Positions 17,624 to 34,823 of a DNA stretch of 64,000 bases are shown piece after piece; within the stretch, counting starts at the first letter, position 1; every line of letters begins with the position of its first letter. The DNA comes from Gemmatirosa kalamazoonensis. Lineage in GTDB: Bacteria; Gemmatimonadota; Gemmatimonadetes; Gemmatimonadales; Gemmatimonadaceae. The notes under the pieces are model-generated. The model saw only the letters and a program-made list of their open reading frames with translations. It ran no database searches and was not told the DNA's origin. Position numbers and translations under genes: made by a program. The stretch is taken from the NCBI RefSeq assembly GCF_000522985.1, contig NZ_CP007129.1:682001-746000 (forward strand). The letters run 5' to 3'.

Positions 17624-19390
17624 TCACCGCGTGACCGGCTCGATCTGGTCGAACCGCAGGTCGCTGCTCCCGACCCCGCGCCCCGTCTCGCGCCGCCGCC
17701 CGATCCACACGAACGTGCGGCCGTCGTACCAGCGCGCGCGCTGGTAGCTTCGCGTCACGATCGTCCCCGAGAACGGGATCTCCTCCTCGTTCACGAACCA
17801 CGGCAGCGCGGGCTCGGTCAACAGCACGCCCTTCGCGCGCACGACGTCGCGCGGCGGGGTGCCCATCTGCGGCATCGCTGCGCGCTGGAACGCGATGTCC
17901 TGGCCGCCGACGTCGCGGCGCGCGGGGAGGAACGGGATCCAGTTCTCGGGCACCGTGGTGCCTAACAGATAGCGGATCGCGGCCGGCGAGTCGTGCACCG
18001 GCGTGGGCTCGACGCCGGTGCGGTCGGCCGCCTGGTGGCCGTCGATGCCGCGCCCCGTCGCGTCGGGGATCACGTCCTCCACCGCCCACACCATGTTCGC
18101 CATCTCGTCGCGCAGGAACTGCACGCGCTCCAGCGGGTCACTCTCGAGCGTGGCGCCGAGCGTCGCGGGGAGGAAGAGCCGCCGGGGTCCCGTCGTCGCC
18201 GCGCTCAGGTCGAAGAGGCTCCACCGCTGCCACCCCTGGTCGGGACGCTCGTTCGCCGCGCGGACGAGCGTGCGCTGCCCGAAGACGTCGGTCACCACGA
18301 GGCCGAGCACCTCGCACACCGTGTTCACCGGGAGCCGGTAGGGGACGACGTACCAGTCGTTCCCGTACACGAGCCCGAGCTCCGCGAAGACCAGCATGAG
18401 CTGGTCGGTCGTCTGCGCGTCGAGCGCGCCGAGGTTCACGAGGCGCTCCTCCATCTCCCAGAAGCGCGCGTTAGGCATCCCCTTGAACGTCACCGTCGTC
18501 GGCAGGAACGACAGCACCTCCTCGGTCGGCGCGCGCGGCGCGGGCGTACCATCGGACGGCGGCACGGGCAGCCCACCGTCCGCGGTCTGGAACGCGTCCC
18601 AGTCCAGCCGCCCGTCGGCGTAGCGCGGCGCATCGAGCCTGAGCACGCCCTCGGGCGCCGGCGCGGCGATCGACAGCGAGTAGCACAGCCGCGCGACGTC
18701 CCACACGGGAGGCGCGTCGGGCGGCGGCTGCGTGTACTGCCGGTCGAGCCACGCGACGAACGCGTCGACGTAGCCCTGGATGTCGCCCGCGTCCGTGCCG
18801 TCGACCGGCACGTCGGCGGCGAACGTGCCCGCGCGGATGGCGTCGAGCGCGCGACCGCCGTCGAACGCGAGCCGCCGAGTCGCGAGATAGAGGTTCAATC
18901 CGTCCACCTGGCCGCGGAAGTCGGCCTCGGCGTCCTGCGCGAACGCGAACGCCGCCCGGTAGCGCGGCCGGTACTTCGCGCGCAGCGCCGGCGAGTGCAG
19001 CCGCAGGAAGTACTGCGCCGCCTGCACACGCAGCGCGTGCGTGAACGGCACGCGCTCCCGCTCCACGGTCGCCTCGAGCGGCGTGGCGTCGTCGTACGGC
19101 TGCGCGGGGCCGGCGCCTAACGACACGCGGTCGGGCGTGAGCTGGCGCGTGACGAGCCGCGCGTCGATGGGCGAGCCGGCGTCCTGCGCCTCCAGCTCGC
19201 CGAGCTGCCACTGCCGCGTGAGCAGCCACATCGCGTCGCGCACCTCGGCCCGGAGACTGCGCGTGAAGTCGTGCGCGCGCGGCCGCGCCTCCAGCCGGTT
19301 GTACGCGGTGACCGCCGGCTCGCGGAACACGTCGAGCAGGAGCGTGGGGTCCGCGCGCATCACGGCACCGAGCTGCGTCAGGGGCGGCAT
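17624..19390 (-). CDS. Uncharacterised protein, last member of the seven-gene operon
   Basis: A 588-residue soluble-looking protein with no signal peptide or membrane span. Landmark segments are MWLLTRQWQLGELEAQDAGS near residue 55, LVYGNDWYVVPYRLP near 340, and RVQFLRDEMANMVWAVEDV near 420; the last reads like a family signature that I have seen only in proteins of unknown function. The start ATG at 19390 is four bases after the stop of the 1593-residue protein. It belongs to the same transcription unit as the giant proteins and the trypsin-fold proteins. I do not assign a function. Confidence 0.75.
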   Translation of the reverse strand: MPPLTQLGAVMRADPTLLLDVFREPAVTAYNRLEARPRAHDFTRSLRAEVRDAMWLLTRQWQLGELEAQDAGSPIDARLVTRQLTPDRVSLGAGPAQPYDDATPLEATVERERVPFTHALRVQAAQYFLRLHSPALRAKYRPRYRAAFAFAQDAEADFRGQVDGLNLYLATRRLAFDGGRALDAIRAGTFAADVPVDGTDAGDIQGYVDAFVAWLDRQYTQPPPDAPPVWDVARLCYSLSIAAPAPEGVLRLDAPRYADGRLDWDAFQTADGGLPVPPSDGTPAPRAPTEEVLSFLPTTVTFKGMPNARFWEMEERLVNLGALDAQTTDQLMLVFAELGLVYGNDWYVVPYRLPVNTVCEVLGLVVTDVFGQRTLVRAANERPDQGWQRWSLFDLSAATTGPRRLFLPATLGATLESDPLERVQFLRDEMANMVWAVEDVIPDATGRGIDGHQAADRTGVEPTPVHDSPAAIRYLLGTTVPENWIPFLPARRDVGGQDIAFQRAAMPQMGTPPRDVVRAKGVLLTEPALPWFVNEEEIPFSGTIVTRSYQRARWYDGRTFVWIGRRRETGRGVGSSDLRFDQIEPVTR

Positions 19391-19394
19391 CGTC

Positions 19395-22300
19395 TCACCC
19401 TCCCGGCGTGGTCGACGCGCTGGTCATGAGCGCCAGCGCCCGCGCGCGAACGTCGGACAGCACGAACGAGTAGTCGAGCGACACGCTGCCGCGGCTCGTG
19501 CTGAACTCCGCCATGACCGCCGGCAGCAGCGTGCCGATCCCGCCCAGGTCCTGGAGGCGGTCGGGCTCCACGGCGCGCAGCCGCGCGCGGCGGAACGTGT
19601 CGAGCACCGTCTCCACGAGGTCGTCCCACGCCCATCGTCCCGTCTCGTCGGGCGAGACGGCGAGCAGCAGCGCCTGCGGCGGCGCGCTGTCCGGAGCGTC
19701 GAAGTTGAACGCGAGCCCGGTCACCTCCGCGCGCGTCGGCACCGATTCGGTCCACTCGTCGAGCAGGAGCCCGCACTGCGGCAGGGACGCGTCGACGACG
19801 AAGCCGGGCGGCAGATGCCTGACGATCGACACGGTGTCGTGCACGACCTCCATCGTCGGTGGGTACTCGGCGCCGAGCCACCGGTCGCCGGCGCGGAACG
19901 GGAGCTGGATCGCGGACAGCGCGAGCGGCTCGTCGCGTGCGGCGTCGGCCATCGCGCGCGCCATCTCGAAGTCGTGCGCGAGCGGGCGCACGCACGCCAC
20001 GCCGTGCAGCCACTCCTCGAGCGGCAGCGGCACACCCACCGTGTCGCGCACGTGGGCGAGCAGCTCGTCGCGCGCGGCCTCGGCCTGCGCGAGCGCGACC
20101 GGATCGTGATACGCGAAGCGCGGCAGCAGCAGCACGTCGGCGCCCATCCACGCCTTCACCGCGTCGGCGAGCAGCGCCACGGCCTCCGCCGCCGGCGCGG
20201 CCACTGCCGCCGCGAGCTGGTCGTCGGTCGCGGGACCCAACGCGTCGGCGCGCGCGAGCACGGCGTCGGCCTGACGCGCGAGCAGGTCCAGCTCGGCCGC
20301 GGCGACGCCCGTCGCGGAGAGCGGCAGCGCGTACGAGAACCCCGTGTCGGCGACGGCGCGCAGCGCATCACGGATCGCCTCGACGTCGGTGCCGGAGGCG
20401 GCGGCGCGGAGCGTCGGGAACAGCGCGCGCACGGCGGCGATGCGCGTGCCCACGCGCGTGCGCAGCTCGGCGAGATCCACGCGTCCGGGATTGTCGGGCG
20501 GCGGCGGGGCGTCCTTCGACGCGCTCTGGAAGTGTCGAGCGTCGAGCGGGCGCGCGGTGCCCAACAGACGTCGCAGCCGGTCGGCGAGCGGCAGCACCTC
20601 GGCGAACGACCGCGCCGCGGGATCACCGCCGGCGTCGGCGAACGCGATGCGCACGACGACGTCGTCGCCTAACGAATTGTCGCGTGCGAAGCGGTCGCGC
20701 ACCCGCGCCTCCAGCTCCGCCGCGCCGCTCGGCTCCGCCTGGCTGCGCACGAGATACACGACGTCGATCGGCTGCACGCCGAGGTCCGCGAGCGTGATCG
20801 TCGTCTCCAGCACCGGCTGCTCGTCCGCGTCGAGCGCGGCGACGCGGCAGCGGATCCCGTCGGGCGCGCCGAGCAGGTCGCCGAGCCACGCGTTCAGCGA
20901 CGGCTCGAGGCGCGCGCGCTCGGTGAGCGGGATCGCGGGCCACGGGTTCGGCGCGGCGCCCGCCGCGAGCGAGACCGCGAGGCGCTGGGTGAACGCGATC
21001 CCCGTCCCGCGCGGCGTGGCGAGCACCTCGACGTCCGGCGGCACCGTGCCGCTGCCCGCGGATTGCAGCACCGCCGCCGCACGATCGAAGTTGCCTAACG
21101 CGAGCTGGTACGCCGCCTCCGACGTGAGCACGTCGCGGAGCGCGTCGAGCGTGTTCGCGACGCCGTCGCGCTCCGTGCGGAGCGCGGCCCGCTGCGCGGC
21201 GTCGAGCGCGGGGAGCCCGGGCACGCCATCGGGGAAGCTCGCCGCCGCCGCGGCGTCCATCGAGGCGAGCGTGAGCCCGTTCGTGACCTGGTGGTCCTCC
21301 TTCACCTCCGCCGCGCCCGCGCCGCCCGACGCGTCGTCGGCCTGCGGTACGCGCGTGCGCAGGATGGGGAACGCGGCGCGGAACGCGGGCTTCAGATGGT
21401 CGAGGATCACGGCACCGGGCGTACGCGTCGTCCAGTCGTGGAGCCCGCGCTCGAACTGGATGCCCAACAGCACCTCGAGCGACTGTCCGTTGCGCACGCC
21501 CTCGAGCAGGTAGCGCGCGCGCCGCACGCGCTCCGACGTGAGGTTCACGGCGAGCGCGTCGGGCTCGGACGGGGTGGCGTGCGTGAGGTAGCCGCTCCGG
21601 AGCAGCGCCGCCGCGGTCGCGTGGTTGAGCGACGGCGTGTGCACGTAGCCGCCGTTGCCCGGTGCCTCCGACACGTTCTCGACGCCGAGCCGCAGCTGCG
21701 CGGGGAGCGTGCGCTCGGGCACCGGCGTGCGTCGACCGGGCACGGGCCGCACGTGCTCGAGGTACCCGTACGCGCCGAGGTACACGCCCGTGCGCCGTTC
21801 CTTCACCGGCGCGTCGAGCCGCCGCTGGCGATGCAGCCGGCGCGCGACGAGCGACGTCTGCCACGCGTCGAGCCGGTAGCTCAGCGTGTCGACGTGCTCG
21901 ACGAGCGCGCGCTCGAGCCGCGCCGTCGGCAGCGCGCGCAGCACGGCGATCGCGTCGCGCTGCTCCCGCACCCCCTGCCCCGCGTCGCCCGCGAGCTGCG
22001 GCGCGTGCAGCACCTCGAGCAGCGGCCGGTCCGATGCCTCGGTCTTCACGATGCGGTTCGCCGGCGCGCGCAGCACCTCCCACACCGACGGCGACGCTTC
22101 GGGCCCGATGTTGAGGAACTTCCGCGAGCGAACCAGCTCGTCGCCGATCACGCCGCGGTCGCCGAGCCAGCGATGCGCGCCGCGACCCGCCTCCATGACG
22201 AGCGAGAAGTGCAGCATGAGATACAGCAGCGCGCCGGGCCGCGGCACGCCCGTGCCGAAGTCCTGCGCCTCCAGCGCCGCCGCGTCGGCGGCGTGCTCGA

Positions 22301-24176
22301 ACAGCCAGTCGAGGTACGTCGCGCCCGTCGCCGCGTCGTACGGCTTCACGAGCGCGCGCTCCGACAGCGGCTGTCCGTCGATGAGCTGCAGCGGGTCGAG
22401 CCGCGTCTGGTAGTGGCGCCAGATGAGATGGAGCAGCAGCGGCAATGGCTTCTCGGTGCCGTCCGCGCGCTGCACCGCGTAGCCGAGCTGCGTCAGCAGC
22501 GTGCGCGTGACCGAGCCCTCGATCATCAGTCGCAGCACGTCGCTGAAGCTGGCGCCGCCCCACGCGAGCCCCTCGAGGTTCTGCAGGTAGTCGTAGCTGT
22601 AGCCCACGCGCTGGTAGAACTCCGCGGACGTCGGATGCAGCGCGAGCACGTCGAGCAGCCCGGCCGCGCCCGGCGCGGAGTCGGAGACGAGCGTCGACCA
22701 CGCGGCGTCGAAGCTCGCGAGCACGCGCACGAGCGTCGGCTCGAACGGGTCGCGTCCATCTGTCGCGGTCGGCCGCCATCGCGGGAGCGCGCTCGTGGGG
22801 AGCACGCCGTACGGCTGGGCGCCGACGCGGATCGCGGCGATCGGGCCGCGGCCGGTGACGAGATCCGTGAAGTGGCGACGCAGACTGCCTGACGAACCTT
22901 CGTCGATCACCTCGTTGAGCATCTGGTCGACGTAGTAGCCGAGCGTCCCCGCGTACAGCGCGCGGTTCATCCCCACCGCCTCGGCGTGGTCGGCGCGCTC
23001 AGCGCCGGCGGCGTGCAGCAGCGGCGCGTACCCGATGCCGAGGAAGTCGGCGAGGCGCTGGCCGTCGGTGGCCACGGCGCGGTCGTCGGTGGGCACGAAG
23101 CGCGGCGGGTCGGCGCCGGGGACCGTCGCGTCGCCATCGGCGCGGTCGCCGCCGGTGAAGCCGGAGTCGCCGTCGTCGGTGTTGTTCGTCGGCGTGCCCT
23201 GGCGCAGCACCTCGAACCCCTCGCGCGCGTATCGGTGGCCGTCGATGAGCTCCTCGACGAGCGCGCGCGCGTCCTCCTCGTCGGCCGAGTGCTTGAGACC
23301 GAGGACGAGCAGCCGGTCGAAGCCCTGCGCGACGTCGTCCGCGGCGACGGGCACGCGGAACGCCATCCCCCGCTCGATCGCCTGCGCGAAGTCGCGCACC
23401 CAGGCGTACGACGTGCCTAACGTCAGCGTGCCGTCGGCCGGGTCGCGCGCGATCGACGGGTCGTCGTCGTCCGTCTCCAGCGGCGCGGGGCCGACGACCA
23501 CCACGTCGTCGAGCCGGCGCCCCACCTCGTTCACGCGCAGCGTCTCGCCGCGCCACGCGAGGAGCACGAAGCGGTCGGGGAGCACGCGGGAGTGCGGCGC
23601 CTCGGTCCACGCGTCGGGCTTCGTGAGCGGCACGTCGGGGAACTCGAGCGCGACCGACGCGTCGCTCGCCGCGAGGTCCCAGTTCGTGGGACGCGTCTCG
23701 AGCGCGACCCACGACGCGCGGTTCGCGCCGAAGCGGTCCGCGAGCGCGCGCCACGCGGCGGCCCGGCCGTCGTCGGTGCGCGCCGCGCGGTACGCGGTCC
23801 AGTACGCGCGGCCGTGCGTCACCTCGGCGTCGGTGAGCAGCCTCTCGTGCGTCGTGATCGCGACGTCGTCGGGGTAGACGCGCACCCACAGCTCCGACGC
23901 GTCCACGCTCCACCGCGTCTCCACGCGCAGCGGCAGCAGGAGGATCGGCAGACCGTCGTCCCACGCCTCGATGAGGCGTTGCGGCGGACGGTCCGCGAGC
24001 AGCCCATCGAGCGCGGCGCGCACGTCCGCCTCGCGGCCCGCGACGAGTCGACGCTGCTCCGCGAGATCGCCGTCGCTCGCGCGGCGAAGCCGCAGCGCGT
24101 GGAGCAGCGACCGCGCGTCGTCGCGTGCACGGCGTGCCGCGCGCACCGCGGCGAGCGCGTCGCGGAGTTCCGTCAT
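19395..24176 (-). CDS. Giant protein of unknown function (1593 residues)
   Basis: A very large soluble protein. An N-terminal charged helical region (about residues 1-60) looks like a coiled coil. ILLLPLRVETRW and LWVRVYPDDVAITTHERLLTD follow at about 75-120. The middle holds IRVGAQPYGVLPTSALPRW and LIDGQPLSERALVKPYD, and the C-terminal part has AEVTGLAFNFDAP and PPQALLLAVSP. These read like conserved signatures, but none belongs to a characterised enzyme family that I know. No signal peptide, membrane span or catalytic motif is evident. The ATG overlaps the preceding gene's stop by four bases, which shows strict coupling. It could be a scaffold or a structural component; this is inference. 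Confidence 0.8.
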   Translation of the reverse strand: MTELRDALAAVRAARRARDDARSLLHALRLRRASDGDLAEQRRLVAGREADVRAALDGLLADRPPQRLIEAWDDGLPILLLPLRVETRWSVDASELWVRVYPDDVAITTHERLLTDAEVTHGRAYWTAYRAARTDDGRAAAWRALADRFGANRASWVALETRPTNWDLAASDASVALEFPDVPLTKPDAWTEAPHSRVLPDRFVLLAWRGETLRVNEVGRRLDDVVVVGPAPLETDDDDPSIARDPADGTLTLGTSYAWVRDFAQAIERGMAFRVPVAADDVAQGFDRLLVLGLKHSADEEDARALVEELIDGHRYAREGFEVLRQGTPTNNTDDGDSGFTGGDRADGDATVPGADPPRFVPTDDRAVATDGQRLADFLGIGYAPLLHAAGAERADHAEAVGMNRALYAGTLGYYVDQMLNEVIDEGSSGSLRRHFTDLVTGRGPIAAIRVGAQPYGVLPTSALPRWRPTATDGRDPFEPTLVRVLASFDAAWSTLVSDSAPGAAGLLDVLALHPTSAEFYQRVGYSYDYLQNLEGLAWGGASFSDVLRLMIEGSVTRTLLTQLGYAVQRADGTEKPLPLLLHLIWRHYQTRLDPLQLIDGQPLSERALVKPYDAATGATYLDWLFEHAADAAALEAQDFGTGVPRPGALLYLMLHFSLVMEAGRGAHRWLGDRGVIGDELVRSRKFLNIGPEASPSVWEVLRAPANRIVKTEASDRPLLEVLHAPQLAGDAGQGVREQRDAIAVLRALPTARLERALVEHVDTLSYRLDAWQTSLVARRLHRQRRLDAPVKERRTGVYLGAYGYLEHVRPVPGRRTPVPERTLPAQLRLGVENVSEAPGNGGYVHTPSLNHATAAALLRSGYLTHATPSEPDALAVNLTSERVRRARYLLEGVRNGQSLEVLLGIQFERGLHDWTTRTPGAVILDHLKPAFRAAFPILRTRVPQADDASGGAGAAEVKEDHQVTNGLTLASMDAAAAASFPDGVPGLPALDAAQRAALRTERDGVANTLDALRDVLTSEAAYQLALGNFDRAAAVLQSAGSGTVPPDVEVLATPRGTGIAFTQRLAVSLAAGAAPNPWPAIPLTERARLEPSLNAWLGDLLGAPDGIRCRVAALDADEQPVLETTITLADLGVQPIDVVYLVRSQAEPSGAAELEARVRDRFARDNSLGDDVVVRIAFADAGGDPAARSFAEVLPLADRLRRLLGTARPLDARHFQSASKDAPPPPDNPGRVDLAELRTRVGTRIAAVRALFPTLRAAASGTDVEAIRDALRAVADTGFSYALPLSATGVAAAELDLLARQADAVLARADALGPATDDQLAAAVAAPAAEAVALLADAVKAWMGADVLLLPRFAYHDPVALAQAEAARDELLAHVRDTVGVPLPLEEWLHGVACVRPLAHDFEMARAMADAARDEPLALSAIQLPFRAGDRWLGAEYPPTMEVVHDTVSIVRHLPPGFVVDASLPQCGLLLDEWTESVPTRAEVTGLAFNFDAPDSAPPQALLLAVSPDETGRWAWDDLVETVLDTFRRARLRAVEPDRLQDLGGIGTLLPAVMAEFSTSRGSVSLDYSFVLSDVRARALALMTSASTTPGG

Positions 24177-26215
24177 GGCTCGCCGGCGAGCATCTCGCGC
24201 GCGTGCACGGCGATCATCACCGGCGACTGGAACAGGATGGTCGCCATGCGCGCGGAGTCGCTGCCCCACTGCGACAGGCTCTCGCCGGGCCCCGCCGGTA
24301 CGAAGCCCTGCGGCAGCACCGTCGTGTCGACGAAGCGGTGCCCGTCGGGGAACAGCGTCCACGCGAGGTCGTTCCACGTGAGCGGCGTCGCCGGATCGTC
24401 GTCGGGCGTGAACGTGACGTCCATGCCGAAGCGCGGCTCGCCCGGCAGCTGCTGAATGATGAAGAAGTAGCCCCAGTCGTCCGCATCGGTCCGCGGATCG
24501 TCCGCGCCGCGCGCCTGCTCCACGGTGAGGTCGAAGCCGAAGAAGCGGATGTCGGGATCGACCGATGCCTTGAACACCGGGAAGCGGATCTCGCGCGCGA
24601 CGTCGGCGTCGCTCGCCACCGGCACGATCACCGCGTCGAGCACCGGATCGCCTGTGAGCGTCGCCGGCGACGGCGCGGGGTGTGCCTTCTGCGCGTAGAT
24701 GAGCGTGTTCGGGTACTTCTTCAGCAGATCGCCGCGCACCGTGAGCACGAGCTGCTCGCCCGGCGGCCGCCGCGGGTTGCGGTGGGAGCCGAGCGCGGAG
24801 TCGGGGAGCCACGTGTCGAGCGGCGCGATGTCCTTGCCGCGCTCCGACGCGCTCGCCGCGCTCTCGCCCGCCGGCTCGGCCAGGATCCCGCGCACGTCCC
24901 AGAACTGGCGGAAGTAGCTGCCGCGCCGATCGGTCGGGTACTCGCGCCAGAGCAGCTCCTTGCCGAACTCGTAGTTGAGCCCCGCGAGATACGCCTCGAT
25001 GAACGGCGGGTTCGTCTCGAGCAGCGTGATGCTGTTCGGCGGGATGAGCTCGAGGTTCGGCAGCAGCAGCTCCGACGACAGATCGCGCAGCTTCTCGTAC
25101 ATCGGGTCGTCGAAGTCCGGATACGCCATCGCCGGCACGAGGTGCTCGGCCTGCAGCAGCCACGCGGGGTCGAACACCAGCCGAACGCCGGCGGCGACGC
25201 GCCGCGGGAACGCGCGCAGCGGCTCGACGGCCGCGCGCAGCTTGTCGCGCGCGACCGCGAGGTCGAACGTCGGCCGCGCGACCTCCGGGATCGTGGCGAT
25301 CGCGAGCCGCCGCTCCAGCGCCGTCGCCGCGGTGCGGAACGCGCGCGCCTCGACCGTGTCGACGCCGGCGCGCGTCGCGGTCACCGTGGTCACGCGCGTG
25401 AAGCGGACCGCGTTAGGCGAGGTCGAAGTCGCGTCGACGTCGGTGACGACCTCCGTGCCCGGGCGTGCGTCGGGCGGCACGACGGGGTCGCGCTCGACGA
25501 AGCGGAACGCGTCGCGCGCAGGCGCCAGCCGTACGGCCTCGGCAACGTCGGCCGGGCGCACGATGGCGGCCGGCGCCGTCGCCGCCGTCGCGGCCTCCTC
25601 GGCCGTCGCGATCTCCGCGAGCCGGCGCCGCGCCAGCGCGCCTAACGCGAGCACGACGGCGGTGCCCGCCACCGCGAGCAGCAGCGCGAGCATCCACAGG
25701 CCGGTGAGGAGACCGAGCACCACGAGCGCGGCGAGAAGGAGCGCGATGACGAGCCAGGCGTGCGCGAGCAGCCACGCGAGGCCCGGCGGCATCGTCGGCA
25801 CGGGCGGCGGTGGTGGGAGCTGCTGCACGGCGCCCGCGTCCGTCGGCAGGCCGGTGCCCGGCCGCTTCGGTGGCGCGGCGGTGAGCGTGCCCGCGGCGAG
25901 CCCGCGCACGAGCGTCGCGTGCGGGGCAGCGACGTCGGCGCGCCGCACCACGGGGCCGCGCGGCCGCAGCATCCGCCGCAGCGCGCCGCTCACCGCCGCG
26001 CGCGGCAGCGTGCTCGCGCCCAGCAGATGCTGCAACGTCGTCGGTGAGCCGCGCACCTTGCGCAGCACCGGCGCGAGGAACGCGATCGTGCGCGCCTCGT
26101 CGAGCCGGCCCGCGAAGTTGACGTACACCGCCTGGCTCGCGCGCATCGCGTACGCGGCGAGCCGGATCAACCGGTTCGCGGCGAGCACCTGCTGCACCTG
26201 CGTCCACGCGCGCGC
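24173..26215 (-). CDS. C-terminal part of frameshifted membrane-anchored giant protein
   Basis: This frame continues the protein that starts at 27465, after a shift in a CG repeat near 26207-26217. The upper boundary is the shift point; the first in-frame ATG is at 26146. About 681 codons encode AWTQVQQVLAANRLIRLAAY, a proline run (QLPPPPPVPTMPPG), a pair of membrane spans (WLVIALLLAALVVLGLLT and WMLALLLAVAGTAVVLALG), and then a large soluble domain with LIPPNSITLLETNPPFIEAY and LLWREYPTDRRGSYFRQF. The last two look like strong family signatures. The TGA overlaps the start of the 1593-residue protein. With one CG unit less the two parts would form a single protein of about 1096 residues. Confidence 0.75.
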   Translation of the reverse strand, partial: ARAWTQVQQVLAANRLIRLAAYAMRASQAVYVNFAGRLDEARTIAFLAPVLRKVRGSPTTLQHLLGASTLPRAAVSGALRRMLRPRGPVVRRADVAAPHATLVRGLAAGTLTAAPPKRPGTGLPTDAGAVQQLPPPPPVPTMPPGLAWLLAHAWLVIALLLAALVVLGLLTGLWMLALLLAVAGTAVVLALGALARRRLAEIATAEEAATAATAPAAIVRPADVAEAVRLAPARDAFRFVERDPVVPPDARPGTEVVTDVDATSTSPNAVRFTRVTTVTATRAGVDTVEARAFRTAATALERRLAIATIPEVARPTFDLAVARDKLRAAVEPLRAFPRRVAAGVRLVFDPAWLLQAEHLVPAMAYPDFDDPMYEKLRDLSSELLLPNLELIPPNSITLLETNPPFIEAYLAGLNYEFGKELLWREYPTDRRGSYFRQFWDVRGILAEPAGESAASASERGKDIAPLDTWLPDSALGSHRNPRRPPGEQLVLTVRGDLLKKYPNTLIYAQKAHPAPSPATLTGDPVLDAVIVPVASDADVAREIRFPVFKASVDPDIRFFGFDLTVEQARGADDPRTDADDWGYFFIIQQLPGEPRFGMDVTFTPDDDPATPLTWNDLAWTLFPDGHRFVDTTVLPQGFVPAGPGESLSQWGSDSARMATILFQSPVMIAVHAREMLAGEP

Positions 26216-27465
26216 GCGACGTAGCTCTCCTGGTGCTCGCGCACCACGCGCACGCCGAAGCCGGCCGACACGCGCGTCCGCGGGTCGCGGTTCAGCGCGT
26301 CGAGCCAGTCGCCGCGCGTCGTGTCCACCGTGTGGCGCAACGCGTGGTGCTCGCCGTAGATCGGCGGCGTGACGACCGGCAGCGTCTCGGTGGCCGGCGC
26401 GGTTCGGCGCTCCTCGGCGAAGTTGAGCGCGGCCTGCAATTGCGCGAAGAACGGACGCGTCACGTCCACCACCTCGGGGCTCGGCGTCGTGGTCGGCGCC
26501 TTCAGCGCACCCTCGAGCCCCACCACGGTCTGCTTCGCGTCGGCGGGGAGGATCTGCCCGATGTCGGTGCCTTCCGTGAGGCCCCACCCGGGCTGCTCGC
26601 CGTCCATGCCGCGCACGCCGACGCGCGGATCGGCGGCGCGCGGCACGAGGCGCTTCACCATCGACTCGAAGTCCTCGTTCTCGCCGGTGCGGAAGCGCCA
26701 CTCGTAGAGCACCGGCAGCTCCACCGCGCCGGCCGCGGCGGTCCACGCCGGCTGCTGCGCGTCGACGGCCGACGGATCCTGGCCGAGCCCCGCGAGCCGC
26801 CCGGTCTCGAACACGGGGACGACGAACGCGCCGTACGCCGTGTTGGGCAGCAGCCGACGCGGCGACGTCAGTCGGCAGACGATGCGGTCCGCGTTCGGGT
26901 GATCGGGCACGCCGAGCGACTCGAGGAACCGCTCGAACTCCGTCGCGTCGGCGAACGTCTCGTTCGTGTGCACGTGCGCCCACGCCCACGTCTGGGTGTG
27001 CGGCGGCAGCGACGCGGTCGAGCGGACGGTGATCGACGGCAAGGGATCGCGCCGCGCCGTGCGCGCGAACTCGCCCTCGTGCTCCGCGGTGTCCTCCTCC
27101 AGCACGGCGAGCGCGAGCCACGGCCGCAGCCGGTCGCCCGCGGCGCGCGCCGGCGTGTACCGCCACAGGAAGTCCTCGTCGTAGAACTCGACGAACGCGA
27201 GGTAGTTCGGCTCGAAGTCGGTGACCCAGTGGCGCGGCTCGGTGCGCACGATCGTCGCCGGGTTGATGCCGAGCACGTCGCCGGGGCCGAGCAGCGCGAA
27301 CTCCTTGTGCACCGGCAGCGTGTTCACGCGCAGATCGACCGGCACCACCGCGCGCTCCGTCGCCGCGCCGCCGCTCGCGCCTAACGTATCGGTCTCGACG
27401 ATCGAGCCCGCGATCCCCTTCCGGAGCCACGACGAGAACGTGTACCGCCCGACCGTCAGGCTCAT
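26167..27465 (-). CDS. N-terminal part of frameshifted giant protein
   Basis: It begins MSLTVGRYTFSSWLRKG, with the ATG overlapping the DUF6603 gene stop by four bases. It reads sensibly for about 417 residues (DFEPNYLAFVEFYDEDFLWRY, ERFLESLGVPDHPNADRIV, REHQESYVARA), then runs into nonsense (RGRRCSRCSPRTG) and a stop at 26167. The true continuation is the frame of the following entry, two bases out of register, so the break lies in the GCGCGCGCGCG tract. Whether it is a sequencing error, a mutation or a phase-variable tract cannot be decided here. No signal peptide is present, and the function is unknown. Confidence 0.75.
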   Translation of the reverse strand: MSLTVGRYTFSSWLRKGIAGSIVETDTLGASGGAATERAVVPVDLRVNTLPVHKEFALLGPGDVLGINPATIVRTEPRHWVTDFEPNYLAFVEFYDEDFLWRYTPARAAGDRLRPWLALAVLEEDTAEHEGEFARTARRDPLPSITVRSTASLPPHTQTWAWAHVHTNETFADATEFERFLESLGVPDHPNADRIVCRLTSPRRLLPNTAYGAFVVPVFETGRLAGLGQDPSAVDAQQPAWTAAAGAVELPVLYEWRFRTGENEDFESMVKRLVPRAADPRVGVRGMDGEQPGWGLTEGTDIGQILPADAKQTVVGLEGALKAPTTTPSPEVVDVTRPFFAQLQAALNFAEERRTAPATETLPVVTPPIYGEHHALRHTVDTTRGDWLDALNRDPRTRVSAGFGVRVVREHQESYVARARGRRCSRCSPRTG

Positions 27466-30400
27466 GCCGCACTCTCCGCGAGCTCGTGCGCCGCGACGAC
27501 CTGCAGCGTGCCGGCGAGCGTGGGATCGGCGCGCACGAGCGCGTCGCGCAGCGCGTACGCCTCGGCCTGGGTGCGCGCGGTGGCCCCCGATGCGGCCGGC
27601 GAGAGATCGACGACGCTCACGACGTGGAACTCGTCGGCCGCCACGGCGACCCCGGCGGGCCCGTTGCCGCCGCCCCGGCGCGACGCGACCGAGAGCGGGC
27701 TCTCGGCGACCGCGCCGCCGCGGCTGAACGTGTCGAACAGCGACTTGAGGATGGACACGCGTCCGCCGCGCTCGGGATGCTGGTGGCGCAGATAGCTCAT
27801 CTCGTACGTGACGTCGCGCGCCACGCTCGCGCCGCTCGCCGCGCCGTCGCCGGCGCTGAGCCGCAGCCCCGCCTTCATCTCCTCGAACGAGCGGCGCGCG
27901 AGCTTCTCGCTGTCGGTCAGGCGCACGAAGCTCGCGATCGCGAACTGCTCGCGCGCCGGCTCCGCCGCGCCGCCGTCGTCGCGCGTCACGGTGAACGTCG
28001 TCTCGCCGATCGGCCGCTTCTCGCCGAAGCGGTCGATCGCGATCTCGAGCGGCGCGATCTTCTGGGTCACCGCGAGCACGCCGAACGGGTGCAGCAGCAC
28101 CACGCCGACGGGAAGCTGCGCGCGCCGCAGCGTCACGCTCTGCGACGTGTTCCTCGGCAGCTCCGCGCGCCAGTTGCGCGCATCGTCGATCGCGGCCGCG
28201 ACGAGCGGCAGCACCTCCACGGTGTCGTCGGGAAGCGCCGGCGCGTCGTCGCCCCACGTGACGTCGAACCCGACGTGGACGCTGAAGAAGAAGAAGCTGA
28301 TGCTCGCGTCGCCGTGCGCGCGCCACGGCGTGGGCCCCGTCAGCTCGGCCGACACGTGGATGCCGCAGATCACGTCGTCGCCGCGCCGCAGCGCGAGCCC
28401 GGCCTCGAGATCGGCCACGAAGTGCAGCGGCCGCACCTGCACGAGCAGGTCGTAGCCGAGGAACCCGTAGATGTTGAAGCCCCCGCCCGACGCGTACAGC
28501 TCCACGCGCGCGCCCGACTGCACGGTGTTCGACGTGACCGCGAAGTACGTCGTCGCGACGAGGCGCGGGTTGCTGCCGGAGAGGAGCGCGATCGTCAGTC
28601 GGCGGAGCCCCGTGAGGTCCGACGGCACCTCGTGGAACGCGGGATGGAACCCGCCCACGCTGACGACGAACACCGGCTCGTCGCCCCACCCCACGCGCAC
28701 CGCCATGTCGCCGGTGAGCGTGAACGTCAGCAGGCTCGAGTCGAACAGCGACGCGTCGAACCAGATCGTGCCGCGCGCGAAGTCGATGCCGCCCGCGAAG
28801 TTCACCTGCAGCTTCAGGATCGGCGCGGCCGCCTCGGGGAGGATGCACCGCAGCACGCCCAACACGACGAGCTGCGGCGACGGGATGTCGAGCACGATCG
28901 CGAGCTCGAGCGAGATCAGCGTCGGCGTGCCCCAGCCGAGCTTCCCCATCGGCGCGACGACGAAGTGCCCGCGCGCGATGGGGAAGAACGCCTTCAGGTC
29001 GCTCACGATGCGGGTGATGTTCCCGATGACGTCGGGCGGGAACAGCACGCTCGTCACCGCGCCGGTGCGCACGCCGAGCTTGAGCGCCTCCGTGTCGAGC
29101 GAGCGCTCGAGCCCCAGCAGCCCGCCGACGCCGAGCAGCGTGAAGCCGAAGCCGAGCTGGATCGGGACGAACTCGGTGGTGACGAGGATGAGCAGCGCGA
29201 ACCCGGGCCGCCCGTCGGGCATCTTCGTGGTGACGATGCCGACCGCCTTCAGCGAGAAGATCCCCTCGAACGACAGCTCGAGCGCGCCGACGTACTCGCC
29301 CTTCGCGTCGTCGAACGCGAGGAAGCCCCCGCCGGTGATCGGCCCCGCGTCGACGCGGAGGCCCACGCCGTCGGGCGGCTTGAAGCCGATGTCGACCTGC
29401 AGCGGTCCGAGGTTCCCCGCGTCGTGCGGCGGGAACGACAGCGTCGCCGTCACGCCGACGTTCTGCACGACGGCCTCGATGGGCCCGAGCTGCGCCTTCA
29501 CGTCGGCGCCCAGGCTGAGCGGCACGCGCCCTTCGTCGAGCGCCGCGCCGATCGTCAGCCCCTCGATCGACACCGGTCCGAGCGCGATGTGCGCCGGCAG
29601 CCGCACCTCGAGTGCGCTGCTGCCGCTGAAGTAGAAGCCGCGCTCCGTCGACACGCCGGCGAGCAGCGAGAACGCGGCCTCGATGTGCGTCGTCGGAAGG
29701 ATCTTGCCGAGGAAGCCGTCGCCGTCGCGCACGTCGATGACGACCTTGCCGTCGTCGAGCGCGGCGCTGACCTCGAGCGCGCCGTGCGACGTTCCGGCCC
29801 CCGCCTCGAGCTGCGCCGTCGCGCCGACGACGAGCTGGCGGAACTCGACGCGGCTGCCGCCCGCCTGGCCGAACAGGATGAACGGATCCGGCGGCGTATC
29901 GCGCGCGACGACGAGCCGGGCGCCCAACGTGCCGGCGAGCGTGACCGGCGTGGGCGGGGTGAGCGAGACCGTGCCGTCGGTGGCGATCGTGATCGCCGTG
30001 TCGACCGGCGCGCCGACGTCCGCCCGCAGCTCCAGGCGCGCCTCGCCGCCTAACGGGATGACGACCGTGCCGCTCGTCGCCGGCAGCTCCGTCCGCAGCG
30101 CGACGACGAGACCGGCCGGCCCCGACGCCGTCGGCGTCAGCTCCAGGAACACGACGTCGAGCCGCTCGGCTCCGGGCGTCGCGTCGTGGATCACGGGCAA
30201 TCCGCTCAGCGCGAGCAGCCGCTCGAGGCGTGGGAACAGCAGGTGGCCGTCGAAGCTCGGTCCCCAGCCGTAGAGCGCCGCCGCCTTCCCCGCCGGGTCG
30301 CGCAGCCACTCCGCGATCGCCTCGAGGTGGTAGGTGTGGATCGTGAACGGCGGCTGCGCGGGATCGGTGGAGTCCTCGCGGAAGTCCTCCCGGTCGAGCA

Positions 30401-30860
30401 GGCCGGCGAACTCCATGACGTCGTTCACCTGGTCGGCGCCGTCGAGATAGCGCGCGAGCAGCAGGTCGACGATGCGCTCGGCCAGCGCGGCCGGCGGTGG
30501 CGTCGGGAGCGCCAGTGACTCGACGGCGGTGGCGAGCGCGCCGAGCGCGTCGATCACCTGGCCCACCTTCAGCGTCGCGGCGAGCGCCTGCTGCACCGCG
30601 GCCGCGCTGTCGTCCCCCTCGAGCGCGGCGACGAGCGGCGGCACGAGATCGACCAGCTCTCCGGCGCGGGCCGCCGCGGTGCCTAACGGCGCCGCGATCG
30701 CCGCCACGTCGGCGTCGGCGAGATCGAGCCCCAGCTCGGCGAAGAACGCCTTCGCGGCGGGCGCGGCCAGCTCGTCGCGCAGCGGCTCGACCAGCTTCGC
30801 GAGCTCGATGGCGACCTGACCGAGCGTGTCGTCGAACTGCGTGGGGGCGGGGGCCGTCAC
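27462..30860 (-). CDS. DUF6603-type large beta-rich protein
   Basis: A 1132-residue protein. The region around residues 590-760 (LGFGFTLLGVGGLLGLERS, GHFVVAPMGKLGWGTPTLI) matches what I know as DUF6603, a family of unknown function. An N-terminal helical part (1-150) precedes a long series of alternating beta strands, suggesting a repetitive beta structure such as a barrel or solenoid. There is no signal peptide. The start is the GTG at 30860, which overlaps the protease stop (GTGA), and the stop overlaps the next gene (ATGA). It is therefore an integral member of the seven-gene operon. Structural or membrane-interacting roles are possible but unproven. Confidence 0.8.
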   Translation of the reverse strand: MTAPAPTQFDDTLGQVAIELAKLVEPLRDELAAPAAKAFFAELGLDLADADVAAIAAPLGTAAARAGELVDLVPPLVAALEGDDSAAAVQQALAATLKVGQVIDALGALATAVESLALPTPPPAALAERIVDLLLARYLDGADQVNDVMEFAGLLDREDFREDSTDPAQPPFTIHTYHLEAIAEWLRDPAGKAAALYGWGPSFDGHLLFPRLERLLALSGLPVIHDATPGAERLDVVFLELTPTASGPAGLVVALRTELPATSGTVVIPLGGEARLELRADVGAPVDTAITIATDGTVSLTPPTPVTLAGTLGARLVVARDTPPDPFILFGQAGGSRVEFRQLVVGATAQLEAGAGTSHGALEVSAALDDGKVVIDVRDGDGFLGKILPTTHIEAAFSLLAGVSTERGFYFSGSSALEVRLPAHIALGPVSIEGLTIGAALDEGRVPLSLGADVKAQLGPIEAVVQNVGVTATLSFPPHDAGNLGPLQVDIGFKPPDGVGLRVDAGPITGGGFLAFDDAKGEYVGALELSFEGIFSLKAVGIVTTKMPDGRPGFALLILVTTEFVPIQLGFGFTLLGVGGLLGLERSLDTEALKLGVRTGAVTSVLFPPDVIGNITRIVSDLKAFFPIARGHFVVAPMGKLGWGTPTLISLELAIVLDIPSPQLVVLGVLRCILPEAAAPILKLQVNFAGGIDFARGTIWFDASLFDSSLLTFTLTGDMAVRVGWGDEPVFVVSVGGFHPAFHEVPSDLTGLRRLTIALLSGSNPRLVATTYFAVTSNTVQSGARVELYASGGGFNIYGFLGYDLLVQVRPLHFVADLEAGLALRRGDDVICGIHVSAELTGPTPWRAHGDASISFFFFSVHVGFDVTWGDDAPALPDDTVEVLPLVAAAIDDARNWRAELPRNTSQSVTLRRAQLPVGVVLLHPFGVLAVTQKIAPLEIAIDRFGEKRPIGETTFTVTRDDGGAAEPAREQFAIASFVRLTDSEKLARRSFEEMKAGLRLSAGDGAASGASVARDVTYEMSYLRHQHPERGGRVSILKSLFDTFSRGGAVAESPLSVASRRGGGNGPAGVAVAADEFHVVSVVDLSPAASGATARTQAEAYALRDALVRADPTLAGTLQVVAAHELAESAA

Positions 30861-32620
30861 ACGAGCACCTCGTCGGCCGCCCCGCGCGACTTCTCCCACC
30901 GCCGCAGCCGCGCGAGCGCATCGTCCATCGTGTCGGCGTCGCGCAGCACGTCGAGCAGCACCGCGGCGTGGGTCGCGATGGCCTCGCGCAGCGGGATGCT
31001 GCCGTGGGCGCGCAGCACGTCGCCCATGCGCAGGAGCATCGTCTCGCGCGTCACGCCCGCGATCTCGTGCGGCACCGCGTCGACGTCGCCGCGCAGGTGG
31101 TTCAGCACGTGGGCGAGGAACGCGGGCCCCTGCGTGCGGTGCCACGCGACCTTCACCGGACGGCAGTTGCGCGCGAGGTAGCCGAGCTCGCGCCGCACGA
31201 CGCCGAACGTGTGGTACAGCGTGCGGCCGAGCGCCGTCTCCAGCAGCGCGTCGCGTCGCGCGAGCAGCTCCGCGAGGCGCGCGTCGTCGAACTCCGCGAG
31301 CGGCAGCGCCGCGGGCCGGCGCGGTGTCGTGGCGTGCGTGAAGTGGAACGCGCCGGTCGGCGATTCGACGTCGACCGCCGCGGCGTGGCGCACGGTCGTG
31401 AGCCCGCTGCCGTCGGTCGCGGCGCAGCTCCCGTGCGACGTGCCGCCGTCGGTCGGGATGCAGATGCCGAGCGCGTCGAGCACGGGTACGATGTGCGACG
31501 CGTAGGCCAGGATGGTGCCGTGTTGGTCCGTGTCGATCGCGTACAGCAGCCCGATCGCGCGCCGCTGGTCGTCGACGACGATCGATCCGGAGTCGCCCTT
31601 CTCGGCGAACGACGCGCGCCCCTTGCAGTTCAGTCCCGTCGGCTCGGACGACGCGTCGAACTCGATCTCGATCACGTTGTCCGCGACGTCGAACACGGGG
31701 TGCGGATCGCCCGGGTTCCGCAGGACGGTCATCTGCGCGTTCACGTTGCGCACGATGCCGACCGTCCGGCCGGTCGTGCGCCCCGACTTGAACACGCGCG
31801 GCGACGTCGCCGTCGGCGGGCCGGCGGGCGTCACGATCGCCGAATCACGCGCCACGCTGCGCACGTCGGCCAGCGTGTCGGCGCCGTTCACCTGGAGGCC
31901 GAGGATCTCCGTCCTGTACTTGATGTCGTCGTGCGTGCAGGTGGTGATCCAGCACTTGCAGTCGATGTGCACGAGCGCGAACGCGCAGTCGAGATAGAAG
32001 CCGGTGGGGTCCGTCTCCCCGGGCAGGACCCGGTTCACCATCTTCTGGACGTGCGGGTCCTGGATCGTTCCGAGCGACTCGCCGTGCGACACCGGGTGCT
32101 GCCGCTCCACGAACGGGTGGTACACGTAGTTCCCCGCGTGCGCCTGGTTCGCGAACAGCACGTGCGCGTTGCTGAGGATGTGCACGTTCTCGCGCCCCGG
32201 ATCGCCGCGCCGGCGCACGATGCAGCCGAGCGTGCCGGCCGATTCGTCCTCCGGCGTCATCGCCGTACCCTGCGCCTGGATCTGGATGCCGCCGCGGATC
32301 GGCGAGTAGTGCTGCCGGTCGTCGCAGCGCAGCGGCGTCCCGCGCCGTACCTCGCGCACGTCGGTGCGATAGCCCTCGAACGAGCGCGGGATGCGCTGCT
32401 CCGGCGCGAGCTCCGATTCCGGACGCTTCTCGCCGACGTACACGGTGATCCCGACGTCGTCGCTGAAACGGCCACCCACCTGCTTGTGCCCGAAGCCGAC
32501 GCCCGCCACGCCCGGGATGCGGCGCAGCGTCTCGCGCGCGCGCACGTACGCGGCCATGAACGCGTCCGGGTCGGCCCGCACGTGCGCGTTGTCCTTCGTG
32601 GGCTCGCGTGGATCGCTCAT
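30857..32620 (-). CDS. Trypsin-fold serine protease-like protein (NAL1-like), paralogue 1
   Basis: A 587-residue protein. An N-terminal domain (about 30-95) has RIPGVAGVGFGHKQVGG, VYVGEKRPESEL and YRTDV. The chymotrypsin-like triad is plausible: His153 in ILSNAHVLF, Asp211 in YLDCAFALV and Ser344 in EKGDSGSIVV. A cysteine cluster (221, 223, 228) follows the Asp. The C-terminal helical domain contains VKVAWHRTQGPAFLAH and is shared with the next paralogue. No signal peptide is visible, so it is probably cytoplasmic or leaves by another route. ATG 32620 lies 7 bases after the previous stop. The NAL1-like naming rests on the N-terminal domain pattern. Confidence 0.82.
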   Translation of the reverse strand: MSDPREPTKDNAHVRADPDAFMAAYVRARETLRRIPGVAGVGFGHKQVGGRFSDDVGITVYVGEKRPESELAPEQRIPRSFEGYRTDVREVRRGTPLRCDDRQHYSPIRGGIQIQAQGTAMTPEDESAGTLGCIVRRRGDPGRENVHILSNAHVLFANQAHAGNYVYHPFVERQHPVSHGESLGTIQDPHVQKMVNRVLPGETDPTGFYLDCAFALVHIDCKCWITTCTHDDIKYRTEILGLQVNGADTLADVRSVARDSAIVTPAGPPTATSPRVFKSGRTTGRTVGIVRNVNAQMTVLRNPGDPHPVFDVADNVIEIEFDASSEPTGLNCKGRASFAEKGDSGSIVVDDQRRAIGLLYAIDTDQHGTILAYASHIVPVLDALGICIPTDGGTSHGSCAATDGSGLTTVRHAAAVDVESPTGAFHFTHATTPRRPAALPLAEFDDARLAELLARRDALLETALGRTLYHTFGVVRRELGYLARNCRPVKVAWHRTQGPAFLAHVLNHLRGDVDAVPHEIAGVTRETMLLRMGDVLRAHGSIPLREAIATHAAVLLDVLRDADTMDDALARLRRWEKSRGAADEVLV

Positions 32621-32627
32621 GTGCCGC

Positions 32628-34142
32628 TCATGTGACGCCCGCGTCGCGCGCGCGGCCCATCGCGATCTTCCCGAGCACCTCGTCGAGCGTCGCGCTGTCG
32701 CGGACGGCGGCGAGCAGCCCCTCGCGATGCGCGTCGATCGCGTCGCGCAGCGCCGCGCTCCCGTGCGCGTGCAGCGCGGCGCCGATGCGCGCGAGCGCCG
32801 ACTCGAGCGTCGTGCCGTCGGCGGGCACGGGGAGCGTCTCGCCGCCGTCGCGCAGCGTCTCCATCCCCTGCGCGAACAGCGCCGGCCCACCGGCGCGGTG
32901 CCACGCCAGCTTCACCGCCCGGTGCGTCGTCACGAGCTGCACGATCTCCTCGTAGTGCGTCTCGCCCAGCTCCCAGAGCCACGCGCCGGCGGCGTCACCC
33001 AACAGCCGCGCGCGCGCCGCGTCGTACGCCTCGATCCCGCCCCACGTCTCGGGGCGCGGGAGGAGCTGTGCACCCGCGGTCGGCGTGGTGCCGGGCGTGA
33101 GGTTGATCGTGATGCCGAGCTCCGCGCACACGTCCGCGATGTGGTTCGCGACCGATCGACCGTCCTGTCCCGGCAGGTCGTTCGCGGCGAACAGCAGGCC
33201 GACGATGAAACCGTCCTCGTCGATGATCGCCGCGCCGGAGTCCCCCTCGGTCGAGAACGCGAACAGGTCGTCGCTCGTGATGTAGATCTGCTGCTTGAAC
33301 GTGTGCGTCTTGATCGTCAGATCCGGCCCCGTGGGATCGACGACGCGGCCCTGCTGACGGCCGCTCGCGGCGCCCACCATGTAGACCGTCTGGTCCCACG
33401 TGGCCTGGCGCATGCCGAGGATCTTGTCGCTCGGCGGCGAGCCGTTCTCGCTCAGGCCGGCGATCTCGTTGCGGAAGTCGATGCCGCAGCAGCGGCAACA
33501 CGACGAGACGTCGAGGCGCGCGATCGCGCCGTCGACCTTCTCGCTGATCGCGAACTTCGCGATCTTCGCGATGGCGTCGTGCTTGTCGTGCGGGCGCACC
33601 GGCGCGTCCGCGAGGGGCACCTGGTCGAAGAACTGCGGCGGTGGCTGGTACACGCGGTTGCCCTTCTCGCCGCCGCCCGCGGAGAGGACGTGCCAGTTCG
33701 TGAGCAGCACCGGCGCGCGGTCGGACGTGCGCGTGGCCACGCAGCCGAACGTGCCCGCCTGAATGACCACCTCCGTCCCTTTGTCGTTCGCGAAGAGAAT
33801 GCGGTTGCTGATCAGGATGCCGCCCTTCACCGGGCGGTAGCGCCCGAAGTCGGTCGTGAAGCGGCCCGGCCGCACGATGTTGACGTCGGTGGGCACACCG
33901 CCCACGGCGGTCGGGATCCGCTCCGCAGGCGGCACCGTGTCGAGCGGCCGCTTCTCGCGGACGTACACGCGGATGCACCGCTCGTCGGTCACGACGTTCG
34001 CGCGCTCCTTCAGCCCGACGCTCACGTGCACCACGCCGGGGATGGCGCGCAGCTCGGCCTCGGCCCCCGCGGCCAGCAGCGCGCGGACGGCCCGCTCGGC
34101 GGCCACCAGCTCGTCGTACGTCGGTCGCGCGCGGCTCGCCAT
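32628..34142 (-). CDS. Trypsin-fold serine protease-like protein (NAL1-like), paralogue 2
   Basis: A 504-residue paralogue of the downstream protein with the same layout. The N-terminal domain has AIPGVVHVSVGLKER, VYVREKRPLDTV and GVPTDVNIV. The triad is His151 (LLTNWHVLS), Asp204 (KVDGAIARLD) and Ser302 (TEGDSGAAIID). A CCRCC cluster sits at 215-219, in the same place as the cysteines of paralogue 1. The C-terminal domain has VKLAWHRAGGPALFAQ and LHAHGSAALRDAID. It lacks a signal peptide. The start ATG 34142 is 9 bases after the first gene of the operon. Substrates are unknown, and self-processing or processing of the giant proteins is a hypothesis. Confidence 0.82.
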   Translation of the reverse strand: MASRARPTYDELVAAERAVRALLAAGAEAELRAIPGVVHVSVGLKERANVVTDERCIRVYVREKRPLDTVPPAERIPTAVGGVPTDVNIVRPGRFTTDFGRYRPVKGGILISNRILFANDKGTEVVIQAGTFGCVATRTSDRAPVLLTNWHVLSAGGGEKGNRVYQPPPQFFDQVPLADAPVRPHDKHDAIAKIAKFAISEKVDGAIARLDVSSCCRCCGIDFRNEIAGLSENGSPPSDKILGMRQATWDQTVYMVGAASGRQQGRVVDPTGPDLTIKTHTFKQQIYITSDDLFAFSTEGDSGAAIIDEDGFIVGLLFAANDLPGQDGRSVANHIADVCAELGITINLTPGTTPTAGAQLLPRPETWGGIEAYDAARARLLGDAAGAWLWELGETHYEEIVQLVTTHRAVKLAWHRAGGPALFAQGMETLRDGGETLPVPADGTTLESALARIGAALHAHGSAALRDAIDAHREGLLAAVRDSATLDEVLGKIAMGRARDAGVT

Positions 34143-34151
34143 CGCGGGTGC

Positions 34152-34823
34152 CTAACGGAGGGAGACGGGCCGCGCGTGCAGCACGTGCAGCACCGGCGCG
34201 ATGGGGCTCGCGACGCCGTCGCCGCGGGGTGCGACGCCCCACAGCAGCCCGACGATGGCGCCGTCCGCGTCGCGCAGCACGGCGCCGGAGTCGCCCGGCG
34301 CGCAGAACGGCACGCCGCGGCGGTCCGCGCGCACCAGGATCTGCGCGGGTGCCGGGCCGATGCGTCCGTCGATCAGCGCCGGCGCCGAGTACGCCACATC
34401 GACCACGACGCCCGCGGTCGTGCCCGTCGCGCCGCCCGTCTTCGTCACGCGCTGGCCGGGCACGACGCGCGCCACGAGAGCCTCGTCGCCACGCGTGGCC
34501 TCGTCCGGCAGCCACGCCTCGTCGATCGACGCGACCGCGCAGTCGACGTGGATGGCCGCGCCGTCGTACGGCACGGTGCCTAACCGGCCGTGCCGCGCGC
34601 GGCCGATCGCCGGTCCGTGCGCGAGCCGCACGGGCTGCCGCGATCGCGCGCCGGCGCCGAACAGCACGTGATGGCTGGTCAGCAGCACGAGGCGCCCGTC
34701 GTGGAGCGTGCGGGCGAGAGAGCCGAGCGTTCCCGGCACGCCGCGCGCGTTCACGATGCGCGCGTTCATCATGCGCGCGATCGTGAATCGCACGCCCGAC
34801 ACACTCGGCAGCTGCACGGGCAC
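34152..34823 (-). CDS. Trypsin-fold serine protease-like protein, paralogue 3 (first gene of operon)
   Basis: A 223-residue protein that is essentially the protease domain alone. His52 lies in LLTSHHVLFG, Asp94 in IHVDCAVAS and Ser179 in FCAPGDSGAVLRD. It lacks the extended N-terminal domain, the cysteine cluster and the C-terminal domain of its two neighbours. The start is GTG 34823, supported by a GGAG Shine-Dalgarno five bases upstream. The stop codon is the TAG of a CGTTAGGC word. The 88-base gap upstream is the most likely place for the operon promoter, but no clear -35/-10 pair can be named. Confidence 0.78.
   Translation of the reverse strand: MPVQLPSVSGVRFTIARMMNARIVNARGVPGTLGSLARTLHDGRLVLLTSHHVLFGAGARSRQPVRLAHGPAIGRARHGRLGTVPYDGAAIHVDCAVASIDEAWLPDEATRGDEALVARVVPGQRVTKTGGATGTTAGVVVDVAYSAPALIDGRIGPAPAQILVRADRRGVPFCAPGDSGAVLRDADGAIVGLLWGVAPRGDGVASPIAPVLHVLHARPVSLR

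Follow-up and report, generated by a model that had tools for sequence, protein, structure and literature searches.

Four adjacent genes, here called D, E, F, and G, have been passed on as a single cassette, by descent and by transfer, among bacteria and haloarchaea, and they almost certainly form the core of a widespread, undescribed system. The cassette was found in Gemmatirosa kalamazoonensis, in a stretch of 64,000 nucleotides that was analyzed as a whole and is called the window below. There it makes up the 3′ part of a seven-gene operon (17624-34823, all on the minus strand; transcription order A, B, C, D, E, F, G), preceded by three protease genes. Neighboring genes are separated by 9 (A/B), 7 (B/C), or 4 bases (F/G) or overlap by 4 bases (C/D, D/E, and E/F), and the original prediction, which had pointed to a tightly packed one-strand row, gave both its position and its spacings correctly. 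Because the last four genes hold their order across phyla, this packing is far beyond chance; the base composition of the operon is the same as that of its surroundings. All seven of the predicted genes are present, but the gene for the large membrane protein (E) is split, leaving eight ORFs for seven genes in this assembly.

A DUF2911 gene precedes A by 88 bp on the same strand (34912-35991, minus), and beyond it a divergent gene pair encodes a LytS-type histidine kinase and a LytTR response regulator (36124-38108, plus). A kinase/regulator pair is also located upstream of a locus for a long DUF6603 protein in genome G158 (L020:1-1667); regulation of the cassette by such a pair is possible, and these pairs are common. 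Elsewhere in the window, an ankyrin-repeat protein (39220-41007, plus) has a C-terminal Clp_N domain, an unusual pairing, and three large proteins are encoded near each other on the minus strand (43804-46458, 47780-50179, and 50738-53419), the first with MacB/FtsX-type permease domains and the other two with similar starts. A tRNA-Ala(CGC) prediction (58946-59045, minus) has an unusual length of 100 bases, lies within a predicted protein-coding gene, and may be false.

An alignment of E searched against about 85,000 species genomes yielded 430 relatives, and the loci of the best 80 of the 430 were fetched and annotated with their own gene calls and profiles. Among these best 80, D-E-F-G have the same order and strand in 62 of the 62 loci that hold all four genes. 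Where there is room for a neighbor, D is followed by E in 75/75 cases, E by F in 76/76, and F by G in 64/67, one of the three exceptions being a G missed by the gene caller; the median D/E, E/F, and F/G gaps are −1, 17, and 5.5 bp. The best 80 cover at least 13 phyla: Bacteroidota, Pseudomonadota, Acidobacteriota, Chloroflexota, Planctomycetota, Actinomycetota, Verrucomicrobiota, Nitrospirota, Myxococcota, Gemmatimonadota, Bacillota, Vulcanimicrobiota, and Cyanobacteriota. The E tree mixes phyla, with at least 30 phylum changes, and within the same set the nearest relative of the window's E comes from a gammaproteobacterial locus (L031) that also has the same three proteases. D-E-F-G were also found on plasmids of Salinigranum and Halobellus (haloarchaea), Streptomyces, and Rhizobium, with some core genes split or not called in the Rhizobium and Halobellus copies. 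Of 298 Gemmatimonadota genomes, 8 encode a DUF6603 protein and 4 encode E, and the E carriers with assembled neighborhoods have the core neighbors. This co-occurrence is very strong evidence for the undescribed, widely shared system that had been proposed; what travels together is D-E-F-G, whereas the proteases are not part of the travelling unit.

A second, distant locus type was observed in Gemmatimonadota (L017/L018 in genome G052, L020/L023 in G158, and L021/L022 in G285), in which DUF6603 proteins of 1663 to 3405 residues are followed by different large genes. The next gene is weakly E-like in two of these loci (1e-6 in L017, about 6e-6 in L021), and the G285 locus is preceded by a gene for a zinc-dependent phospholipase-C-like protein. 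The D-E pair may be an older unit.

The three leading genes of the window operon encode a small protease A of 223 residues (34152..34823, minus, GTG start), B of 504 residues (32628..34142, minus), and C of 587 residues (30857..32620, minus). The His, Asp, and GDSG motifs appear in the expected order in each of them (TSHHV/VDCAV/GDSG in A, TNWHV/VDGAI/GDSG in B, and SNAHV/LDCAF/GDSG in C), and all three match phrog_20754 in PHROGs (5.7e-11, 5.4e-31, and 1.8e-27, respectively). By their triads, A, B, and C are trypsin-like serine proteases of predicted catalytic activity. They share the catalytic domain and triad with the NAL1/trypsin-like proteases (PF25608, PF25819, and the phage protease phrog_20754); however, their Pfam matches are weak (Trypsin_2 and NAL1_N in B, Nal1_C at 0.0034 in C), and those to the NAL1 family (0.003 to 0.06) stay below the cutoffs (13.6 to 14.1 bits against 27 for NAL1_N, 17 bits against 26.1 for Nal1_C). 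B and C further differ from these proteases in an additional domain at the C terminus, which links them to the D-E-F-G core. A is devoid of this domain, and the same small protease is the first gene in L031.

The three proteases had been taken as part of the conserved unit, which the wider comparison contradicts: trypsin-like proteases are not core and represent one filling of a variable upstream slot. The gene upstream of D varies between loci, a downstream slot being rare. According to Pfam, the slot is occupied by S8 subtilases (L032, L042, L048, L051, L054, L070, L071, L076, L077, L084, and L110), M64-type metallopeptidases (L064, L092, and L094), PhoD-like phosphatases (L036, L061, and their relatives), or a galactose-oxidase-like protein (L104); the slot protein of L027 combines a PhoD-like N terminus with a peptidoglycan-binding domain. 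Other slots hold several proteins of no recognized family, some loci carry two to four proteases, and some have no recognizable enzyme. On the E tree, the slot class of 57 labelled leaves changes at least 23 times, compared with a mean of 33.5 and a minimum of 26 for shuffled labels (labels were taken from clustering and Pfam on representatives, and single ones may be wrong), indicating that the slot is inherited for a time yet often swapped. Three unrelated protease folds at one position argue for selection for the presence of an enzyme and against the descent of one gene.

The slot enzymes might activate or process the core, with the proteases cleaving and maturing the giant proteins of an envelope assembly. 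That the slot is most often filled by three unrelated protease classes (trypsin-like, subtilase, and M64-like), in several copies at some loci, is consistent with such a role, as are the intact catalytic motifs in the window. We nevertheless regard it as unlikely, given the PhoD-like and galactose-oxidase-like proteins in the same slot and the loci that have no recognizable enzyme. Since the slot elsewhere holds non-protease enzymes, the proposal that proteases process or regulate the assembly cannot describe the general mechanism; it could hold at loci that do have proteases.

B and C end in a shared domain of about 123 residues (32646..33017 in B and 30887..31258 in C, both minus) with the motif E...W-H/Q-R..GP (WHRxxGP in B), a candidate docking or loading domain. 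A model built from the ends of the window's B and C alone detected the same domain in nine subtilases (4e-6 to 3e-12), where it sits at the protein ends, outside the catalytic domain. The domain gave 33 matches in 25 of the 49 whole genomes scanned, and all 33 are at core loci (coordinates were compared and three unclear cases fetched); all lie directly upstream of the core, except two directly downstream of a G. The latter belong to L142 (G304:C15), a further core locus whose two domain-bearing proteases follow G and do not precede D. In the 298 Gemmatimonadota genomes, there were three strong matches, all directly upstream of D, and no other clear ones. For a domain that unrelated enzymes have in common and that is restricted to a single cassette, a coupling function is the best reading, and we infer that it binds the core. 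The domain was not found in slot proteins of the PhoD, M64, and oxidase types, so docking through it is not universal.

Core protein D (27462..30860, minus; 1132 residues) is a full-length member of DUF6603 (PF20248), scoring 445 bits against a cutoff of 27 over profile positions 2 to 501 of 502; the domain spans residues 424 to 984 (27909..29591, minus). The Pfam entry gives no function and does not describe the linked E, F, and G or the enzyme slot, and DUF6603 is not mentioned in the literature searched, a body that leaves out preprints and most subscription journals. In the AF2 model of D (pLDDT 80.3, pTM 0.50), the first ~220 residues are helical and are followed by about 40 β-strands in an antiparallel meander, with a hydrophobic/polar in/out alternation of 3.06 compared with 1.22 for shuffled strands. 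The best matches of the model in Foldseek and VIA are SlpA, LptD, FimD/PapC ushers, SprA, OprD-type porins, and ApoB100 (Foldseek, 3.7e-6 to the SlpA complex and 6.6e-5 to LptD; VIA, Z up to 13.3 with RMSD values of 8.5 to 11.4), and because the TM-scores are low (0.12 to 0.15), these matches indicate the kind of architecture only. By this model, D would be a giant amphipathic β-barrel or β-sheet, inserting into membranes or holding lipid. Among PDB chains, the matches of a D profile were to helical designs and coiled coils.

The long amphipathic meander of the model resembles the giant outer-membrane barrels (LptD, FimD/PapC, SlpA, and SprA) and ApoB100; unlike these, D has no signal peptide, and sequence similarity to them was not found. 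An outer-membrane barrel would carry a Sec signal and reside in an outer-membrane host, whereas the window's D has no N-terminal hydrophobic segment, a signal peptide is flagged in 2 of 77 D proteins, and relatives of D also occur in archaea and monoderm bacteria. As members are present in Streptomyces, Kribbella, Paenibacillus, and haloarchaea, all without an outer membrane, D is not a classical outer-membrane protein. The likeness of the model to ApoB100 and LptD as well as to porins also fits an assembly that binds or moves lipids, in which D would be an ApoB/LptD-like lipid-carrying β-structure and the slot enzymes would act on the envelope; PhoD-like slot enzymes and the phospholipase-C-like gene upstream of the related long-DUF6603 locus agree with it. 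Most slot enzymes are proteases, however, and the matches reflect overall β-topology; we consider this explanation rather improbable.

Core gene E is present in the window as two ORFs. E1 (26167..27465, minus; 432 residues) comprises the conserved N-terminal domain and matches positions 1 to 445 of the E profile, and E2 (24173..26206, minus; 677 residues) comprises a membrane hairpin, a variable middle, and the conserved C-terminal domain. The reading frame breaks at a run of CG dinucleotides (26207..26218, minus), and relatives at L031, L032, L042, and L033 read intact through the same stretch. A sequencing error, slippage, or a real mutation could each account for the break; with E frame-broken, the window copy of the system may be dead. 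Two transmembrane segments are predicted at 25634..25753 (minus; residues 152 to 191 of the E2 ORF, P0006). The membrane-anchored large protein of the original prediction does not have a single reading frame in this assembly. One or two strongly hydrophobic segments occur in 65 of 85 E proteins, and a membrane hairpin is predicted in most members. The signature singled out earlier as conserved (LLWREYPTD...FRQF) is the most conserved part of the system; it lies in E at 24902..24955 (minus) and reads LLWREYPTDRRGSYFRQF.

The model of E from L031 (1083 residues, pLDDT 84.5) begins with strands that match Ig/CopC-type sheets at weak Z, continues through a long run of helices in which the membrane hairpin lies, and ends in a mixed domain at the C terminus. 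Foldseek returned no match with an E-value under 0.4 in PDB and BFVD, and VIA matched only long helices and Ig/CopC-like sheets (Z up to 6.3), which is no evidence of a new fold. In two closely related Bacteroidota loci, a small reverse-strand ORF between E and F (L095:12129-12533 and L047:2242-2640, both minus) could reflect an insertion or an error of gene calling.

F (19395..24176, minus; 1593 residues) and G (17624..19390, minus; 588 residues) belong to no known family. Searches of the window proteins against Pfam, PHROGs, NCBIfam, and PADLOC recognized nothing beyond DUF6603 in D and the weak trypsin/NAL1 matches of A to C, and E, F, and G gave no meaningful match in these databases or, as profiles, among all PDB chains. 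For E and G, the comparison with solved structures returned nothing meaningful; the F profile (~1140-1241) matched TAL-effector repeats at 1e-9, which is probably an artefact of helical repeats or of composition. Profile comparison revealed no homology among D, E, F, and G, and an internal repeat at the profile level in the C-terminal third of G. Strongly hydrophobic segments are almost never found in F and never in G.

The original prediction had noted no phage, contractile-injection, or defense component, and none was found in Pfam, PHROGs, or PADLOC. Scans of IMG/VR for a phage origin gave no relative of E or D and a single 47-residue match to G at a contig end. A "Bacteriophage sp." record from human feces (MT835531.1, L029) carries E, F, G, and the end of D beside chromosome-like genes and is probably a mislabelled bacterial contig. 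PADLOC had no match for the eight window ORFs and showed no recurring family among 132 flanking proteins; the flanking genes are ordinary, with no recurrent defense or phage family found. Extracellular contractile injection systems, such as the Photorhabdus virulence cassettes (PVCs), likewise combine a conserved carrier with an exchangeable enzyme payload. They differ from the cassette, in which no sheath, tube, baseplate, or AAA+ ATPase was found; sheath, tube, and baseplate families remained below threshold for the window proteins in PHROGs and Pfam. In addition, the tag of the cassette enzymes is C-terminal, whereas PVC payloads use N-terminal signals (PMC11495950).

Protease genes adjoining a predicted membrane-inserting β-protein also recall bacterial gasdermins, which use caspase-like or trypsin-like proteases (PMC9079055). 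By analogy, the cassette could be an intracellular suicide or defense device, in which a sensor would activate the slot enzyme and the enzyme would open a D pore. Its patchy distribution, frequent transfer between phyla, and lack of signal peptides would suit such a device. It appears quite unlikely to us: gasdermin families gave no Pfam or PADLOC match, the flanks show no enrichment of defense genes, no sensor domain was recognized, the slot enzymes are often not proteases, and the core of four giant proteins is unusually large and constant. Gasdermins are also absent among the listed structural matches of D, a listing that is still compatible with a gasdermin-type fold.

Plausible N-terminal signals were found in 1 of 59 slot proteins and in 0 to 2 of about 300 core proteins. 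Signal peptides were flagged in 6/59 slot proteins and 37/193 flanking proteins, a difference that is not significant (p 0.12), and five of the six flagged slot signals look like false alarms; only the absolute rarity is used here. Secretion is usual for PhoD-like, M64, subtilase, and galactose-oxidase-like enzymes. Domains common on extracellular or envelope proteins sit inside members of the system: an FG-GAP domain in E and a peptidoglycan-binding domain in the slot protein of L027, and a lamin-tail domain in G of L025.

We tentatively read the cassette as an envelope-associated machine for carrying, exporting, or delivering an exchangeable enzyme cargo, a mechanism that we consider plausible rather than probable. 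D-E-F-G would assemble at the cell envelope, with E as the anchor and D as a wall or conduit that would insert into the membrane or bind lipid. The assembly would take up the slot enzyme without a Sec signal, through the C-terminal domain where this is present, and bring it to the surface, export it, or deliver it into a target. The slot enzyme would set what the assembly does, the core being the carrier. This carrier reading is favored by the constant order of the cassette, the swapped slot, the exclusive C-terminal domain, signal-less slot enzymes of typically secreted families, extracellular-type domains in members, the β-model of D, and the ordinary flanks. Against it, the core proteins, too, have no signal peptide to account for a route out, no ATPase or other motor was found in the core, the TM-scores of D are low and its pTM is 0.50, and E is frame-broken here. 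In its broadest form, put forward with somewhat more reserve, the carrier reading describes a pan-prokaryotic export or delivery machine: a membrane-associated D-E-F-G carrier that would load signal-less hydrolases of unrelated folds, those of the protease branch by means of a C-terminal domain dedicated to loading, and export them or deliver them into other cells.

Three of the four core proteins fall outside the described families, despite the number of E relatives among the species genomes searched. If the carrier reading is true, the cassette would represent a secretion or delivery system of a new type, whose C-terminal domain would be a handle to find and attach cargo. Should the cassette prove to be a pore opened by a protease or a machine for lipids, DUF6603 still gains a context. 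The conserved unit and its swappable slot make the question testable at once.
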